DNA of 38,701 nucleotides, from assembly GCA_013140575.1 (NCBI GenBank), contig JABFSN010000199.1, forward strand, positions 1 through 38,701. Direction: 5' to 3'. The position numbers and the translations under genes were made by a program. The DNA comes from Phycisphaerales bacterium. GTDB taxonomy: Bacteria > Planctomycetota > Phycisphaerae > UBA1845. The notes under the pieces were generated by a model that did no database searches, had not been told where the DNA came from, and saw only the letters and a list, made by a program, of their open reading frames with translations. Positions 696 through 25,614 of this stretch are shown piece by piece. Position 1 is the first letter of the stretch. Each line of letters starts with the position of its first letter.

Positions 696-717
696 GGATG
701 GCGAGCGTTGAAACGCT

Positions 718-791
718 GCCGGCGTAGCTCAGTTGGCTAGAGCGTCTGACTGTGGATCAGAAGGTCTCGGGTTCGAGTCCCGGCGTCGGTA
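718..791 (+). tRNA. tRNA-His (anticodon GTG)
   Basis: A full cloverleaf folds here. The acceptor arm is GCCGGCG (718-724) with CGTCGGT (784-790). The D arm starts GCTC, the anticodon stem TCTGA/TCAGA holds the loop CTGTGGA (anticodon GTG, His), and the T arm has loop TTCGAGT (772-778). The base before the acceptor stem is T717, not G, and the discriminator is A791, not C. Ordinary bacterial tRNA-His encodes G-1 opposite C73, so this gene resembles the minority type seen in some Alphaproteobacteria. No CCA is encoded. It lies 42 bp upstream of the hisS start used here and is probably co-transcribed with it. Confidence 0.9.
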
Positions 792-833
792 TTGGGGATC
801 CCCCGCGGTCGTCGCGACCCGTGGAGCGCGGAT

Positions 834-2351
834 GTGGCGGAGCGGGTGGAAAGCAGGGTGTTTCGGGGCGTCCGCGATCTTCTGCCGCGGGAGATGGCCG
901 CGCGGCAGTGGTTGATTGAGCGCATTCGCGGGGTTTATGAGCGGTATGGTTTCCTGCCGCTGGAAACGCCGGCGCTGGAACATCTCGATGTCCTGACCGG
1001 GTCCGCGGGCGACGAGGCGTCGCAGTCCATTTTCCGCGTGCGAAATCCGGACGACCCGTCGGACGAGCAGCCTGTCGACCGGCTGGGGTTGCGGTTCGAC
1101 TTGACGGTGCCGCTGGCGCGGGTGGTGGCGCAGTACCGCGATCTGCCCCGGCCGTTTCGGCGGTATCAGGTTTCACCCGTGTGGCGGGCGGACAGGCCCG
1201 ACCGGGGGCGGTTTCGCGAGTTCATTCAATTCGACATCGATTCGGTGGGCGTGGAATCGAACGTGGCCGACGTGGAGATCATGGCGGCGATGTGCGACAC
1301 GTTGTCGGCGCTGGAGGTGGGGCCGTTCCGGGTGCGGTTTTCCAGCCGGCGGATTCTGAACCTGCTGCTGCGCTACGCCGAGATTCCGGACACGTTGATC
1401 GTTCGGCCGAGGCGGACGGCCGATTCGCCGCCGGGCGAGCCGGTGGAGCGGGCGGGCGCGGATGTTTTTCGCGTGCTGGACAAGTTGGAAAAAATCGGCC
1501 GGGACAATGTCCGGCTGGAATTGACCACGGGGTACGCGGACAAGTCGGGGGATTGGGTTCCGGGATTGGGGTTGTCGGGCGAGCAGGTGGATCGGATCGA
1601 CCGGTTCGTTTCGATACAGGGCGATCGTCGCGCCGAGGTTTTGAAGCAGTTGTCGGCGCTGTTCGCGGATGTGCCGGGCGCGGCCGATGAAATCGAGTCG
1701 TTGAGTGACATGTCGCGTCAGTTGGAGATGTTGGGATACGGCGACGACCGGGTGGCGCTGGATTTGAGCGTGGCGCGGGGACTGGCGTATTACACGGGTC
1801 CGGTGTTCGAGGCCATTCTGCTGGACGCGCCGCAGTTCGGGTCGGTGTTCGGCGGCGGTCGGTATGACGAACTGGTGATGCGGTTTTCGGGCGAGAAGCT
1901 GCCGGCCACCGGGGCGTCGATCGGCGTGGATCGGCTGCTGGCGGCGCTGGTGCATCTGGATCGGGCGCCGAAACGCACGGCCGCGGCGCAGGTGCTGGTG
2001 GCCGTGGTCGATCGGCCGATGATGGACGAGTATTTGGCCATGACGTTTGAGTTGCGGCGTGCGGGGATCGCGGCCGAGTTGTATCTGGGCGGCAAGGGGA
2101 TGGGGCGGCAGTTCAAGTATGCGGACCAGTTGGGGATACCGGTGGTGGTGGTGTACGGGGGGAATGAGAAGGCGCGCGGGATCGTCGTGTTGAAGGACAT
2201 GCAGGCGGGTCTGGCGCGATCGGCGGAGATTACGGATCATCAGGATTGGGTTCGCGAACGACCGGGTCAGACGGAGGTGCCGCATGGGGAGATGATCCCG
2301 GCGTTGAGGAAGTTGTTGGGGGAGATTGAGGGGGAAACGTCGAAAAGCTGA
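834..2351 (+). CDS. hisS: Histidyl-tRNA synthetase
   Basis: HisRS is a class II aminoacyl-tRNA synthetase that charges tRNA-His. Numbering from the chosen GTG at 834, motif 2 lies near residues 117-138 (VWRADRPDRGRFREF followed by IQFDIDSVG), and the histidine-binding signature GLAYYTG and motif 3 region (GGGRYDELV, TGASIGVDRL) follow, then an anticodon-binding domain. Length, about 505 residues, suits the longer HisRS branch. The RFREF-x-QFD-x-D-x-VG form of motif 2, and the inserted segment with DKSGDWVPGLGLSGEQ, resemble the alphaproteobacterial-type HisRS that pairs with tRNA-His lacking G-1, and the adjacent tRNA has that feature. Start: GTG834 has GGAG at 823-826; a TTG at 792 would abut the tRNA and has no ribosome site. 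Confidence 0.94.
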   Translation: MAERVESRVFRGVRDLLPREMAARQWLIERIRGVYERYGFLPLETPALEHLDVLTGSAGDEASQSIFRVRNPDDPSDEQPVDRLGLRFDLTVPLARVVAQYRDLPRPFRRYQVSPVWRADRPDRGRFREFIQFDIDSVGVESNVADVEIMAAMCDTLSALEVGPFRVRFSSRRILNLLLRYAEIPDTLIVRPRRTADSPPGEPVERAGADVFRVLDKLEKIGRDNVRLELTTGYADKSGDWVPGLGLSGEQVDRIDRFVSIQGDRRAEVLKQLSALFADVPGAADEIESLSDMSRQLEMLGYGDDRVALDLSVARGLAYYTGPVFEAILLDAPQFGSVFGGGRYDELVMRFSGEKLPATGASIGVDRLLAALVHLDRAPKRTAAAQVLVAVVDRPMMDEYLAMTFELRRAGIAAELYLGGKGMGRQFKYADQLGIPVVVVYGGNEKARGIVVLKDMQAGLARSAEITDHQDWVRERPGQTEVPHGEMIPALRKLLGEIEGETSKS

Positions 2352-2986: not shown

Positions 2987-3071
2987 GTAGGTCGGGTCAT
3001 CGACCCGACAGTCGCTCAAGCCGGCAGGACGGGTCGTGGCGAGCAGGCGTCTGGTCGATGACCCGACCCAC
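2987..3071. repeat. Twin-hairpin element, family B, copy 1
   Basis: GTAG plus a 19-nt hairpin (GTCGGGTC-ATC-GACCCGAC, 2991-3009), a 39-bp linker, and the mirror hairpin (GTCTGGTC-GAT-GACCCGAC, 3049-3067) plus CCAC. The second copy lies at 5015-5100. The two copies share hairpins and spacing but not the linker sequence. Confidence 0.85.
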
Positions 3072-5014: not shown

Positions 5015-5100
5015 GTAGGTCGGGGCATCGACCCGACATTTGTTTCGCCGGGCTGGACGTGTCATGCACCGGAAAACGTCGGGTCGATGACCCGACCTAC
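5015..5100. repeat. Twin-hairpin element, family B, copy 2
   Basis: An 86-bp copy: GTAG, hairpin 5019-5037 (one mismatch), 40-bp linker, hairpin 5078-5096 (GTCGGGTC-GAT-GACCCGAC), CTAC. The ends are perfect inverted repeats except one base. The linker is unrelated to that of the copy at 2987-3071. Confidence 0.88.
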
Positions 5101-5117: not shown

Positions 5118-5319
5118 CGGGGTGCCCCACCCCATTCGTGGGGTGGGGGACGGTCGTGCCGGAGTGATCACGGCGATGCGGTTCACGGACCCGGGCGGGG
5201 GGGGTTGTATTCGTCGATGATGAAGCGATTCAGTTCCCCGATCGGCAGGACTGTGTATCGGTGTGACCCGGTCGCGCGGGAGATCAGTCCCCCACCCCTG
5301 GGACGGGGTGGGGCACCCG
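5118..5319. repeat. Inverted repeat pair of ~33 bp around a 136-bp core
   Basis: 5118-5150 (GGGGTGCCCCACCCC...GGGGTGGGGGAC) and 5287-5319 are reverse complements apart from the short loop bases. Each arm can itself fold (CCCCACCCC/GGGGTGGGG). The core has no plausible gene. Confidence 0.7.
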
Positions 5320-5566
5320 CCACGCAAGCGTGGGCCATGCCACCCCGGGGCGCGGATTGCGATGGGATGACCGCGGGTGATCGGCATGGCCACGCAAGCG
5401 TGGACCATGCCACGCGAGGCGTGGGCCATGCCACCCCGGGGCGTGGGCCATGCCACCCCGGGGCGCGGATTGCGATGGGGTGACCGCGGGTATTCGGCAT
5501 GGCCACGCAAGCGTGGACCATGCCACCCGACGTGTGAGCCATGCCACCCGAGCCGTGGACCATGCC
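5320..5566. repeat. Cluster of CCACGCAAGCGTGG palindromes and a ~125-bp direct duplication
   Basis: Units built of CCACGCAAGCGTGG, GCCATGCCACCCCGGGGCG and GCGGATTGCGATGGGGTGAC recur. The stretch from GCGGATTGCGATGGG through CGGCATGGCCACGCAAGCG occurs twice (starting near 5352 and 5464). Variants CCACGCGAGGCGTGG and CCACCCGACGTGTG continue the run. The spacing is irregular, so this is not a CRISPR array. Confidence 0.75.
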
Positions 5567-7399: not shown

Positions 7400-7517
7400 G
7401 GTTCAGCCGGGTTTTGATCGCACTCCGCCTGTCGATCGACGACATGCCGCGCGGGCGTCGTACCCGAACACGTTGCACGCGGCAAGCCGACCAGACCGGG
7501 TGCATCACCCCGAGCTG

Positions 7518-7688
7518 GTGCTCCGTCGCAGCTAGAGTTTTGGGTCGTGTGGCACGGACAACGGTACTCCGTTGTCCGTGTAGGCTGTGCGTGCATCGAT
7601 GAAACCAGGGCGCCGCTCGGCGGGCCAGACCACGGGCAAGCGAGTACGCTTGCCCGTGCCACCCGAAAAATGAGCTGCGATGGAGCGC
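7518..7688. repeat. 171-bp twin-hairpin element, family A, subfamily I, copy 1
   Basis: Architecture 35-28-50-28-30. Hairpin 1 is 7553-7580 (stem CACGGACAACGG, loop TACT); hairpin 2 is 7631-7658 (stem CACGGGCAAGCG, loop AGTA); the linker is 50 bp. The ends GTGCTCCGTCGC and GCGATGGAGCGC are inverted repeats, and GTGGCACGG / CCGTGCCACCC form the inner inverted repeat. Flanks here are TG and CC, so the TA seen at other copies has decayed. Confidence 0.9.
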
Positions 7689-12526: not shown

Positions 12527-12554
12527 CACGGGCAAGCGGGTACGCTTGCCCGTG
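12527..12554. repeat. Solitary family A hairpin
   Basis: Stem CACGGGCAAGCG, loop GGTA, CGCTTGCCCGTG, followed by CCACCCGAAAA as in the right end of the 171-bp elements. Hairpin 1 and the linker are missing, so this is an element remnant. Confidence 0.8.
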
Positions 12555-12601
12555 CCACCCGAAAACGAGGTTATGTCGCGCTACGCGCCTGTGCCGCGCG
12601 G

Positions 12602-19621: not shown

Positions 19622-19633
19622 GCGGTGTTCCTA

Positions 19634-19804
19634 GTGGACCGATCCAACCGATTCTGTGGGTGGCACGGGCAAGCGTACTCGCTTGCCCGTGGTCTCCGAC
19701 TTTCGGCGTCGACTGCGCTTTCAACGTGCTGGCCGGTCGCACACGGACAACGGAGTACCGTTGTCCGTGCCACCCGACCCGCATTTTCGCGTGGATAGCC
19801 CCAC
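19634..19804. repeat. 171-bp twin-hairpin element, family A, subfamily II, inverted copy
   Basis: Reverse orientation of the copy at 25368-25538. Hairpins are at 19664-19691 and 19742-19769, with flanks of 30 and 35 bp. The left flank is TA (19632-19633); the right flank is CA. The linker matches the 25368 copy, not subfamily I. It forms the upstream region of the CNNM gene. Confidence 0.9.
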
Positions 19805-21958: not shown

Positions 21959-23503
21959 ATGGCTTTGGTAACGTTGATTCGCCCTCCCTTGTTGGTGCCC
22001 AAATGGTCGGATTCGGGACCGATCACTCCGCCGATCGGGCCCGCCTATCTGGCCGCCGGTTTGCAGCGGGCCGGTCACGCCGTGCGAATCATCGACGCCG
22101 TCGGCGAGGCCCCGTTCCAGGTCACCCGGCTGTTCAACGACCGCATGCTCGGCGTGGGACTGACCAACGAGCAAATCGCCGAGCGGGTCGATCCCACTTC
22201 CGACATGGTCGGCGTGTCGTGCATGTTCTCGCAGGACTGGCCCGAACTGCGACGGATCATTGAGCGCGTCCGGCAACGCCTGCCCCGCGTGCCCATCGTC
22301 GCCGGCGGCGAGCACATCACGGCCGTCCGCGAATTCACTCTGCAATCCTGCCCGGAAGTGGACTACTGCGTGCTCGGCGAAGGCGAGGAAACCATCGTCG
22401 AACTGGTCCGCGCTGTGGCGAGCGGCGGCGACGTTTCAAAAGTCGCGGGCGTCCTGTATCGCTCGCCCGACGGCGCGGTCCGGCAAACGGCGCCCCGCGG
22501 CCGAATTCAATCGATTGACGAAATCCCACCGCCGGCGTGGGACCTGGTCGACTTGAACCCCTATCTCGACAACGGGCTGGGGTTCGGCGTCAACCGCGGC
22601 CGCAGCATGCCCATTCTGGCCACGCGCGGGTGCCCCTATCAATGCACGTTCTGCTCGAGCCCACACATGTGGACCACGCGCTGGTCGGCACGCGACCCCG
22701 GCAACGTGCTTGACGAAATCGAGTCGTACATGGACCGCTACCGCGCGACCAATTTCGATTTCTACGACCTGACCGCCATCATCAAGCGCGAATGGATCGT
22801 GGCATTCTGCGAATTGATTCTGGCCCGCGGTCGGCAGTTCACCTGGCAACTGCCCAGCGGCACGCGCACCGAGGCCATCGACGAACAAGTGACCCGTCTG
22901 TTGTACGCGTCGGGCTGCCGGAACATCAGCTATGCCCCGGAAAGCGGCTCGGTCGACGTCCTCAACCGAATCAAGAAGCGCATGCACCTGGACCGCATGG
23001 CCGGATCGATCCGGTCGGCCGTGCGCAACGGGCTGAATCTCAAGCTGAACATCATCATGGGCTTTCCGGATGAAACGCGCGCGGAAATCATGAAAACGAT
23101 CGGCCTGCTGGCCCGGCTGGGCGGCATGGGCGTTCACGACGCCAGCGTGTCGCTGTTTTCGCCGTACCCCGGGTCGGAATTATTCAACACGTTGCGGGCG
23201 AATGGCGCGATTCCCGAACTGTCGGACGAGTATTTTCTTTCGTTGGGCACCTACAAGGATTTTTCCCAAACCACGTGTTATTCCAACGGAATCGGCGCCC
23301 GCGAACTGAATGCCTACCGCCTGATCGGCATGTCCGCGTTTTACGGCGTGCAGTACCTTTCCCGCCCGTGGCGGTTATGGCGGACCGTGGCCAATTTCCT
23401 TTCGCATCGCGAGGAATCGCGCCTCGACAAATCCCTGCGCGACCTGGTTCACCGCCTGCTGCCCGGATTCAAACGACGCCGCCGGGCCATCCCCGCCGCG
23501 TAG
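21959..23503 (+). CDS. B12-binding-domain radical SAM protein
   Basis: 514 residues. The N-terminal cobalamin-binding-like Rossmann domain (about 1-190) includes PPIGPAYLAAGLQRAGHAVRIID, PIVAGGEHIT and YCVLGEGEETIVELV; the classical DxHxxG cobalt-ligand motif is not seen. The radical SAM domain has Cys225, Cys229 and Cys232 (RGCPYQCTFC) and the GFPDETRAEIMKT strand. Family members methylate, cyclise or cleave diverse substrates; none can be chosen here. The C-terminus ends in a basic tail. ATG 21959 is preferred; the frame is open upstream to 21785 without support. The TAG stop (23501-23503) coincides with the TA|G boundary of a 171-bp repeat element, so the original C-terminus may have been longer. 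Confidence 0.88.
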   Translation: MALVTLIRPPLLVPKWSDSGPITPPIGPAYLAAGLQRAGHAVRIIDAVGEAPFQVTRLFNDRMLGVGLTNEQIAERVDPTSDMVGVSCMFSQDWPELRRIIERVRQRLPRVPIVAGGEHITAVREFTLQSCPEVDYCVLGEGEETIVELVRAVASGGDVSKVAGVLYRSPDGAVRQTAPRGRIQSIDEIPPPAWDLVDLNPYLDNGLGFGVNRGRSMPILATRGCPYQCTFCSSPHMWTTRWSARDPGNVLDEIESYMDRYRATNFDFYDLTAIIKREWIVAFCELILARGRQFTWQLPSGTRTEAIDEQVTRLLYASGCRNISYAPESGSVDVLNRIKKRMHLDRMAGSIRSAVRNGLNLKLNIIMGFPDETRAEIMKTIGLLARLGGMGVHDASVSLFSPYPGSELFNTLRANGAIPELSDEYFLSLGTYKDFSQTTCYSNGIGARELNAYRLIGMSAFYGVQYLSRPWRLWRTVANFLSHREESRLDKSLRDLVHRLLPGFKRRRRAIPAA

Positions 23504-23673
23504 TGCTCCGTCGCCCGTAAAGTTTTGGTTCGGGTGGCACGGACAACGGTACTCCGTTGTCCGTGTAAGCTGTGCGTGCATCGATGAATCTAAGGCGCCG
23601 CTCGGCGGGCGAGACCACGGGCAAGCGAGTACGCTTGCCCGTGCCACCCGAAAAATAAGCTGCGATGGAGCAC
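23503..23673. repeat. 171-bp twin-hairpin element, family A, subfamily I, copy 2
   Basis: The cleanest copy: TA (23501-23502), GTGCTCCGTCGC..., hairpin 1 at 23538-23565, 50-bp linker, hairpin 2 at 23616-23643, ...GCGATGGAGCAC, TA (23674-23675). The termini are inverted repeats with one mismatch over 12 bp, and the flanking TA looks like a target-site duplication. Confidence 0.92.
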
Positions 23674-23958: not shown

Positions 23959-25368
23959 ATGGGTCTTCCCGTCGTCGCCATCGTCGGCCGACCGAACGTC
24001 GGCAAGAGCAGCCTGTTCAACGTCATCACCGGACGGCGGACCTCCATCGTCGATCCGACGGCCGGGGTCACGCGCGACCGCGTGTCGGCCGTCTGCGACA
24101 TCGACGATGTGTTTTTCGAACTGGTCGACACCGGCGGGTTCGGCATTCAGGACGTGGACGATTTGACCGAGCACGTCGAACGCCAGATCGGATACGCCAT
24201 CGAGCAGGCCGCCCTGATTCTGTTCGTCGTCGACGTGCAGGACGGCGTGGTCCCGCTGGATCAGACCGTGGCCGAGTTGTTGCGGAAGCACCACCGCCGC
24301 GTCGTTCTGCTGGCCAACAAAACCGATTCGCCGGTGCAGGAGCCGCAGGCGTCGGAATTCGGCCGGCTGGGATATGGTGCGCCGCTGTGCGTCTCCGCGG
24401 TTCACGCCGTGGGCAAGCGCGAACTGCTCGAACGGGTCGCCGTCCGCCTTCGCGACGCCGGGGGAACCGAACCGACCGAACCGGAAATGTGCGTCGCCCT
24501 CATCGGCCGGCGCAACACGGGTAAAAGCACGTTCATCAACGCGCTGGCCGGCGCGGAGCGCGTCATCACCAGTGAAGTGCCCGGCACCACTCGCGACGCC
24601 ATCGACGTGCGCTTCGAATTCGACGGGCGTTCGTTCATCGCCATTGACACGGCCGGCGTGCGAAAAAAACGCAAGATGGACGACGCCATCGAGTTCTACG
24701 CGTTCACCCGCATGCAGCAGTCCATCGATCGGGCAGACGTGGTGCTGTTTCTCATCGACGCGGCCGAACCGACAAGTCGCGTGGACAAGACGCTGGCCAC
24801 CTATCTGGTCGACCAGCACAAGCCCGTGGTTCTCGTGGTCAACAAATGGGACCTGGCCAAGGGGCAGGCCGGGACCGACGAATACGGGCAGTACCTGGCC
24901 CGCACGCTCGGCGGCTTGGGTTTCGCACCCATGGTCTTCACTACCGCGATCACCGGCAAAAACGTCACCGCGGCGGTCGACACGGCCTCGTCGCTGTTCA
25001 AGCAGGCGCGGGTCCGGGTGGGCACCGGCGTTTTGAATCGCGCGTTCGACGAGATCAAGGAACTGCGCGGGCCTTCGGCCAAACGCGGCACTCGCCGGCC
25101 GAAACTTTTCTACGCGACGCAGGTGGCCGTCGCTCCCCCGACCATCGTCTTGTTCGTGAACGACGACCGCAGCGTGGACGAACGCTTCGTGCGGTTTCTC
25201 GCGAGTCAATTCCGCGAACGGCTGCCCTATCCCGAAGTGCCGATTCGCCTGATCCTGCGCCCCCGCCACGAGGAATCGCGCACGCCCGACCGACCCCGTC
25301 CCGCGATTCGCACCGATCGCCGGCGCGTCCACGACGTCCGCGGCCGCAGCACACGTCGAACGCAGTAG
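23959..25368 (+). CDS. der: Ribosome-associated double GTPase Der (EngA)
   Basis: Der has two G domains in tandem and a KH-like C-terminal domain and acts in 50S subunit maturation. The 469 residues show domain 1 P-loop GRPNVGKSS (10-18), DTGGFG and NKTD; domain 2 P-loop GRRNTGKST near 182 (the usual Pro-Asn-Val is changed to Arg-Asn-Thr), DTAGVRKKRKMDD and NKWD; and the KH-like end RRPKLFYATQVAVAPPTIVLFVN...RLPYPEVPIRLILRPR. A basic tail follows. ATG 23959 has GAGATCGGAA upstream. The TAG stop (25366-25368) coincides with the TA|G boundary of a 171-bp repeat element. Confidence 0.96.
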   Translation: MGLPVVAIVGRPNVGKSSLFNVITGRRTSIVDPTAGVTRDRVSAVCDIDDVFFELVDTGGFGIQDVDDLTEHVERQIGYAIEQAALILFVVDVQDGVVPLDQTVAELLRKHHRRVVLLANKTDSPVQEPQASEFGRLGYGAPLCVSAVHAVGKRELLERVAVRLRDAGGTEPTEPEMCVALIGRRNTGKSTFINALAGAERVITSEVPGTTRDAIDVRFEFDGRSFIAIDTAGVRKKRKMDDAIEFYAFTRMQQSIDRADVVLFLIDAAEPTSRVDKTLATYLVDQHKPVVLVVNKWDLAKGQAGTDEYGQYLARTLGGLGFAPMVFTTAITGKNVTAAVDTASSLFKQARVRVGTGVLNRAFDEIKELRGPSAKRGTRRPKLFYATQVAVAPPTIVLFVNDDRSVDERFVRFLASQFRERLPYPEVPIRLILRPRHEESRTPDRPRPAIRTDRRRVHDVRGRSTRRTQ

Positions 25369-25538
25369 TCGGACCATCCACGCGAAGATGCGGGTCGGGT
25401 GGCACGGACAACGGTACTCCGTTGTCCGTGTGCGACCGGCCGGCGCGTTGCAATCGCAGTCGACGCCGAAAGTCGGAGACCACGGGCAAGCGAGTACGCT
25501 TGCCCGTGCCACCCGCAGAATCGGTTGGATCGGTCCAG
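25368..25538. repeat. 171-bp twin-hairpin element, family A, subfamily II, copy 1
   Basis: TA (25366-25367), GTCGGACCATCC..., hairpin 1 at 25403-25430, 50-bp linker (unrelated to subfamily I), hairpin 2 at 25481-25508, ...GGATCGGTCCAG, TA (25539-25540). Same 35-28-50-28-30 layout as the other copies. It lies between the convergent der and S15-hydrolase genes. Confidence 0.92.
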
Positions 25539-25614
25539 TAGTTCCGCATTGCCGCGAGTTTAACGAGGCGGTCGCGTCCAGCGCAGTCGCGTTCGCGCAG
25601 CCGCCGGTCGGGCA

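Follow-up and report, generated by a model that had tools for sequence, protein, structure and literature searches.

How does a planctomycete come to carry a tRNA-His that departs from the bacterial identity rule for histidine directly upstream of a histidyl-tRNA synthetase (HisRS) gene, and was this rule changed in place or brought in from elsewhere? Identity rules of tRNAs are regarded as difficult to alter, since enzyme and tRNA have to change in step. In the canonical bacterial system, a Gln in motif 2 of HisRS interacts with the G-1:C73 pair of the tRNA, and the alphaproteobacteria that lost G-1 have a Gly at that place (PMC3937112). This bacterial exception has been described as limited to Alphaproteobacteria (PMC6471195, PMC3937112, PMC9976931), and its origin is debated between transfer from eukaryotes and convergence (PMC5370408). 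The window, by which we mean the whole 38,701-nt stretch of DNA analyzed here, contains the following elements of a histidine identity system:

718..791, + strand: tRNA-His(GTG) (ARAGORN 717-792; Rfam RF00005 718-791, 67.5 bits; sequence read directly)
717..717, + strand: T at position -1, where nearly all bacterial genes have G (sequence)
718 (G1) and 790 (T), + strand: G1-U72 wobble pair of the tRNA-His (sequence)
752-754, + strand: anticodon GTG of the tRNA-His (sequence)
784-790, + strand: acceptor positions 66-72 of the tRNA-His (sequence)
791, + strand: discriminator A73 of the tRNA-His (sequence)
834..2351, stop codon 2349-2351, + strand: hisS, histidyl-tRNA synthetase of the A73 type (TIGR00442, 348 bits; PF13393 and PF03129; trees)
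1200..1202, + strand: Asp codon in the motif 2 loop, at the place of the Gln that goes with G-1:C73 (alignment)

The tRNA-His folds completely over positions 718-791 according to both ARAGORN and Rfam RF00005 (RNA folding of the tRNA region alone gives z = -0.27, uninformative by itself), and its CCA is not encoded, the base at 792 being T. It is devoid of a genomically encoded G-1 (T717) and has both A73 and U72 (A791 and T790); a previous sequence-only reading had placed T717 at position -1 and A791 at the discriminator, and direct reading of the sequence together with the tRNA calls confirms this. The hisS gene follows on the same strand after a gap of about 42 nt, with GTG834 as its probable start codon. 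Its product scores 348 bits with TIGR00442, against a cut-off of 286.75, and has a C-terminal PF03129 anticodon-binding domain (residues 386-475), so that it can be identified as a HisRS and not as the paralogue HisZ. A scan for promoters and terminators around the tRNA-hisS pair gave no signal clearly above chance. Motif 2 of this enzyme reads RYQVSPVWRADRPDRGRFREFIQFDIDSVG, with the loop RADRPDRGRFREF, and in the alignment the second Asp of this loop occupies the position of the Gln of the canonical RPQ.GR motif. The canonical identity set, G-1:C73 together with the motif 2 Gln, is thus absent from the window pair, as judged from sequence and alignment. With Asp at the Gln/Gly position, the motif is akin to the alphaproteobacterial one without matching it exactly; the earlier attribution of an alphaproteobacterial-type motif 2 therefore stands as regards the related motif and the replaced Gln and fails as regards the residue itself, which is not the alphaproteobacterial Gly. 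The solved structures that best match the window HisRS are 3net, 6nhi, and human cytoplasmic HisRS, with E. coli-type enzymes behind, and the enzyme belongs to the eukaryote-like branch.

The host genome (5.05 Mb in 268 contigs, 96.5% complete, with 1.7% estimated contamination) was searched by family and by pattern, a procedure from which a tRNA-His with an unusual T-loop could escape. The search for a second tRNA-His/hisS pair, suggested by the sequence-only reading, returned one gene of each kind: a single hisS above the TIGR00442 cut-off, with the other HisRS-like matches far below it, and a single tRNA-His found by the pattern; neither a second nor a canonical hisS or tRNA-His was found in this 96.5%-complete genome. 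The search for a Thg1-like enzyme, proposed in the same place, gave no PF04446 match in the genome at E values up to 1. The genome also has a class A RNase P RNA. It is quite likely, as one part of the explanation that we favor below, that the window carries the only histidine identity system of its genome.

To place this pair among its relatives, hisS and tRNA-His were taken from related genomes, most of which are MAGs. All 22 tabulated C73 tRNA-His genes have G-1 and G1:C72, and 37 of the 39 tabulated A73 genes, some of them named ones from other phyla, have G1-U72, with T20, G8, C8, and A3 at position -1. Relatives with the canonical system, in the same family and order, invariably have G-1 and C73 (22/22) and the linkage of the two genes is skewed (p = 0.0055, see below), so that the deviation of the window tRNA-His is not due to chance. 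The family of the window contains 13 A73 and 9 C73 tRNA-His genes, with a matching HisRS wherever it could be read, and in no genome read do A73 and C73 tRNA-His occur together. Across the 56 genomes in which both parts are readable (three more are unscorable), Gln in motif 2 goes with C73 in 12/12, and Gly, Asp, Glu, or an insert goes with A73 in 44/44, divided into 42 genomes with Gly, Asp, or Glu and A73/U72 and 2 with a two-residue insert and A73/C72. This last combination constitutes a separate covariation in family f96, where the only two A73 tRNAs devoid of U72 belong to the only two insert enzymes:

L044:1441-2934 and L049:1360-2913 (G325, G332): HisRS with a two-residue motif 2 insert (CDNPYEKRGRFREF), with an A73 tRNA-His that has G1:C72

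Matches to a strict A73 tRNA-His pattern were obtained in at least 15 of 392 Planctomycetota genomes; in the acidobacterial phylum, at least 15 of 396 genomes match an A73/U72 pattern. Both values are lower bounds because the patterns miss variants. The tRNA-His is unreadable at the Vicinamibacteria locus L178 and the uncultured L180 (contig ends, no pattern match). Among the individual variants, L145 (G166) has an A73 tRNA-His with a differing acceptor stem (GGGCGGA/TCTGCCT) and an unusual D-loop, and in the alignment the HisRS at L172:430-2199 (- strand; G109) has a long insertion, of tens of residues, after the motif 2 region.

A HisRS tree of 79 rows unites all A73-type enzymes in a single clade (99/98) and sets them off from the canonical ones with the RPQxGR type of motif 2, which make up a separate branch (100/99). 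The window-type enzymes constitute a clade of their own (100/100) that mixes planctomycetes and Acidobacteriota, and a HisRS tree made for the window type likewise joins them with Acidobacteriota in one clade (100/99); Phycisphaerae bacterium MAG_25 and Planctomycetota CSMAG_2662 fall in the HisRS clade of the window's family, which puts the host in Planctomycetota, probably in Phycisphaerae. For clades that were named after inspection of the trees, and with a sampling steered by similarity to the window, topology tests disfavor the monophyly of the planctomycete window-type HisRS (p = 0.029), reject a single clade for the two A73-type HisRS clades found within the window's family (AU p = 0.00014), and disfavor a planctomycete clade that excludes the alphaproteobacterial enzymes (p = 0.022), which are nested among planctomycete and acidobacterial ones. 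The presence of two separate A73-type clades, and of both states, in one family implies that the pair has been replaced at least twice, and window-type HisRS may have been exchanged with Acidobacteriota more than once. The phylogeny thus bears out only half of an alphaproteobacterial affinity: the window HisRS shares the large clade of the alphaproteobacterial enzymes (99/98), but its nearest relatives are other planctomycetes and Acidobacteriota.

The arrangement of the two genes follows the same division. Of 31 planctomycete A73-type loci, 9 have a tRNA-His immediately 5' of hisS and in the same orientation, versus 0 of 21 canonical loci (Fisher p = 0.0055, for rows that are not independent). 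These nine loci belong to families f1, f96, f73, f67, f33, and f60, and the same linkage is found in a further planctomycete (L177), an acidobacterium (L179), a contig binned as Bacteroidetes (L181), a bacterium (L190), and an alphaproteobacterium (L243). Eight further acidobacterial genomes beyond L179 also have linked pairs, and a HisRS motif lies at most about 450 nt downstream in 9 of the 15 acidobacterial A73 loci. Linkage is common and not required, the two genes being apart in most A73 planctomycete genomes. A third gene is common 3' of window-type hisS, encoding an aromatic amino acid lyase for which the best models are histidine ammonia-lyase. It lies directly 3' of hisS in planctomycetes (G302, G304, G325, G332, and L177) and Acidobacteriota (L179, G845, G482, and G699), and at L179 it overlaps the hisS stop codon. 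The divergent histidine ammonia-lyase genes located after window-type hisS are:

L177:5405-7264
L179:5398-7131
L302:2577-4433, - strand
L304:2240-4225
L301:5478-7319
L288:1448-3205, - strand
L289:1767-3548

These lyases are 53-87% identical to one another across phyla and 33-46% identical to the remaining lyases in the comparison, among them the only one of the window genome. A lyase gene was considered as a part of the window unit and discarded, as no lyase follows hisS in the window and the only copy in the genome lies elsewhere and belongs to another subfamily; the window unit is consequently smaller than that of many relatives, with two genes. Histidine ammonia-lyases of other subfamilies also adjoin the hisS of a second A73-type in two planctomycetes (L043:3050-4327, - strand, and L156:3031-4362).

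How the A73 tRNA came to accompany its enzyme can be approached through the tRNA body. The A73 tRNAs of the window's family have a mean identity of 73.5% with the C73 tRNAs of their own family, versus 83.2% with A73 tRNAs of other planctomycete families and 80.2% with those of other phyla. In trees of the tRNA body, built without the acceptor stem and discriminator and resting on 59 columns, A73 and C73 tRNAs separate with SH-aLRT values of 99 (C73 tRNAs of the order) and 86 (more of the phylum). As A73 bodies are closer to the A73 tRNAs of other phyla than to the C73 tRNAs of their own family, joint transfer is favored over adaptation in place. At the level of sequence comparison, and with few columns, this is support for co-transfer and not proof: the enzyme may contribute through selection, and the similarity of A73 tRNAs in the anticodon arm could in part reflect convergent selection by the same enzyme type. 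We consider it quite probable that a G-1-independent HisRS and its matching tRNA-His were transferred jointly among Planctomycetota and Acidobacteriota, taking the place of the resident pair. The sequence-only reading had proposed that, outside Alphaproteobacteria, the altered system was taken up or retained as one unit, and the results support it: enzyme and tRNA types switch together without exception, and several planctomycete families, Acidobacteriota, and one alphaproteobacterium all have linked pairs.

The mechanism can be outlined by analogy with Caulobacter, whose experimentally determined identity set, A73, U72, and the anticodon (PMC9976931), is exactly that of the window tRNA. The tRNA-His and hisS genes, side by side, are probably transcribed together; RNase P would cut the pre-tRNA at +1, and CCA would then be added. 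HisRS would charge this tRNA without G-1, reading A73, U72, and the anticodon with a motif 2 loop devoid of the Gln that goes with G-1:C73, and it would not serve a canonical tRNA-His. The Caulobacter pair has been shown experimentally to be orthogonal to the E. coli pair through the discriminator, position 72, and G-1 (PMC3875453). With no cross-reaction expected with a standard pair, either gene by itself would fail in a new host, and therefore tRNA-His and hisS, linked and sometimes accompanied by the histidine ammonia-lyase gene, most likely moved together among Planctomycetota and Acidobacteriota, displacing the resident pair. Orthogonality would explain both the linkage and the joint change of the two genes. 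A broader proposal, which we hold tentatively and somewhat short of an even chance, is that an orthogonal tRNA-His/hisS module, often with histidine ammonia-lyase, spreads horizontally between bacterial phyla (Planctomycetota, Acidobacteriota, and others) and displaces resident pairs, the alphaproteobacterial G-1-less system being one branch that received it from this bacterial pool.

Other explanations start from the same observations. HisRS alone may have been transferred, with the resident tRNA-His adapting afterwards in place by point mutation, a scenario that Ardell and Andersson are said to have proposed in 2006 for Alphaproteobacteria. A few changes (loss of G-1, C72U, and C73A) would be enough in principle, and the tRNA and hisS are unlinked in most A73 genomes; however, the differences between A73 and C73 tRNAs of one family extend over the anticodon arm and the acceptor stem (GCCGGCG versus GTGGGCG), the A73 bodies resemble those of other phyla more than the C73 bodies of their own family (80.2% versus 73.5%), and several phyla have linked pairs, which makes this course of events rather improbable. 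Somewhat less improbable, though still unlikely, is that the tRNA retains U-1, whose pairing with A73 would extend the acceptor stem to eight pairs, with U-1:A73 in place of G-1:C73. When Acidobacteriota are included, the 53 A73 genes have T33, G9, C8, and A3 at position -1, and this frequency of T exceeds that of other tRNAs at the same loci (10/40; p = 0.0004, for rows that are not independent), with T in 14 of the 15 acidobacterial A73 genes. By contrast, 20 of the 53 genes have G, C, or A there with the same HisRS types, and the Caulobacter enzyme reportedly charges a tRNA lacking any -1 base (attributed to Yuan et al. in 2011). RNase P, for its part, is generally described as preferring U-1, and the excess of T at -1 may reflect either this preference or a kept U-1:A73 pair.

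The affinity of the window HisRS with the eukaryote-like branch, seen in its best structural matches (3net, 6nhi, and human cytoplasmic HisRS), would also agree with a post-transcriptional addition of G-1 as in eukaryotes, and hence an identity of the eukaryotic G-1/A73 kind, but the genome has no Thg1 match at E values up to 1 and motif 2 has no Gln, so that we regard this as highly improbable. Least credible of all is an assembly or binning artefact, namely a foreign contig in a planctomycete bin: the bin does consist of 268 contigs with 1.7% estimated contamination, yet the contig is 38.7 kb long, the search of the bin yielded no canonical copy, and the same HisRS type and kind of tRNA are shared by further genera of the family and by a second family of the order (G302, G304, G310, G325, and G332).

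By analogy, the window pair would work like the alphaproteobacterial system (known from Rhodobacteraceae, Rhizobiales, Caulobacterales, and Hyphomonadaceae, and in vitro from Caulobacter crescentus), with differences in the motif 2 residue and in branch position and with probable linked transfer as the new element. Both systems share the absence of an encoded G-1, A73, U72, the GUG anticodon, the replaced motif 2 Gln, and a HisRS of the same large clade. The window pair differs in its planctomycete host, in having Asp and not Gly in motif 2, in a HisRS placed on a separate branch with Acidobacteriota and nearest to planctomycete and acidobacterial enzymes, and in the adjacency of tRNA-His and hisS, often followed in relatives by a histidine ammonia-lyase gene. 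With the canonical pair of G-1:C73 tRNA-His and RPQxGR HisRS it shares the decoding job and the class II enzyme family (TIGR00442); that pair, with its HisRS on a separate branch, is used by other members of the window's family and was not found in the window genome. Eukaryotic tRNA-His, with A73 and a Thg1-added G-1, has in common with the window A73 and the eukaryote-like HisRS branch, whereas the window genome has no Thg1 match and its tRNA has G1-U72. The HisRS of Trypanosoma brucei and Acanthamoeba castellanii works without G-1 (PMC6471195), a probable likeness to the window enzyme, although those hosts are eukaryotes. A literature search retrieved no description of such a system in Planctomycetota or Acidobacteriota, with Wang 2007 and Yuan 2011 known through citing papers, so that a mention there is possible. 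One family with both rules and with linked pairs suggests a simple way past the barrier to changing an identity rule, both parts moving at once, and pairs from planctomycetes and Acidobacteriota open the origin of the alphaproteobacterial-type switch to testing; they also provide many natural A73 pairs that would probably be orthogonal in E. coli.

The window has, in addition, several repeats. A dispersed family with a palindromic core (CACGGGCAAGCG..GTACGCTTGCCCGTGCCACCC) occurs in both orientations at 7503-7686, 12527-12572, 19631-19804, 23488-23671, and 25353-25541. A second, small repeat, GTAGGTCGGGTCATCGACCCGAC, is found at 2987-3009, 3049-3071, 5015-5041, and 5074-5100, forming two inverted pairs 39 and 32 nt apart, and a tandem duplication of 113 nt, with 87% identity, spans positions 5305-5530.
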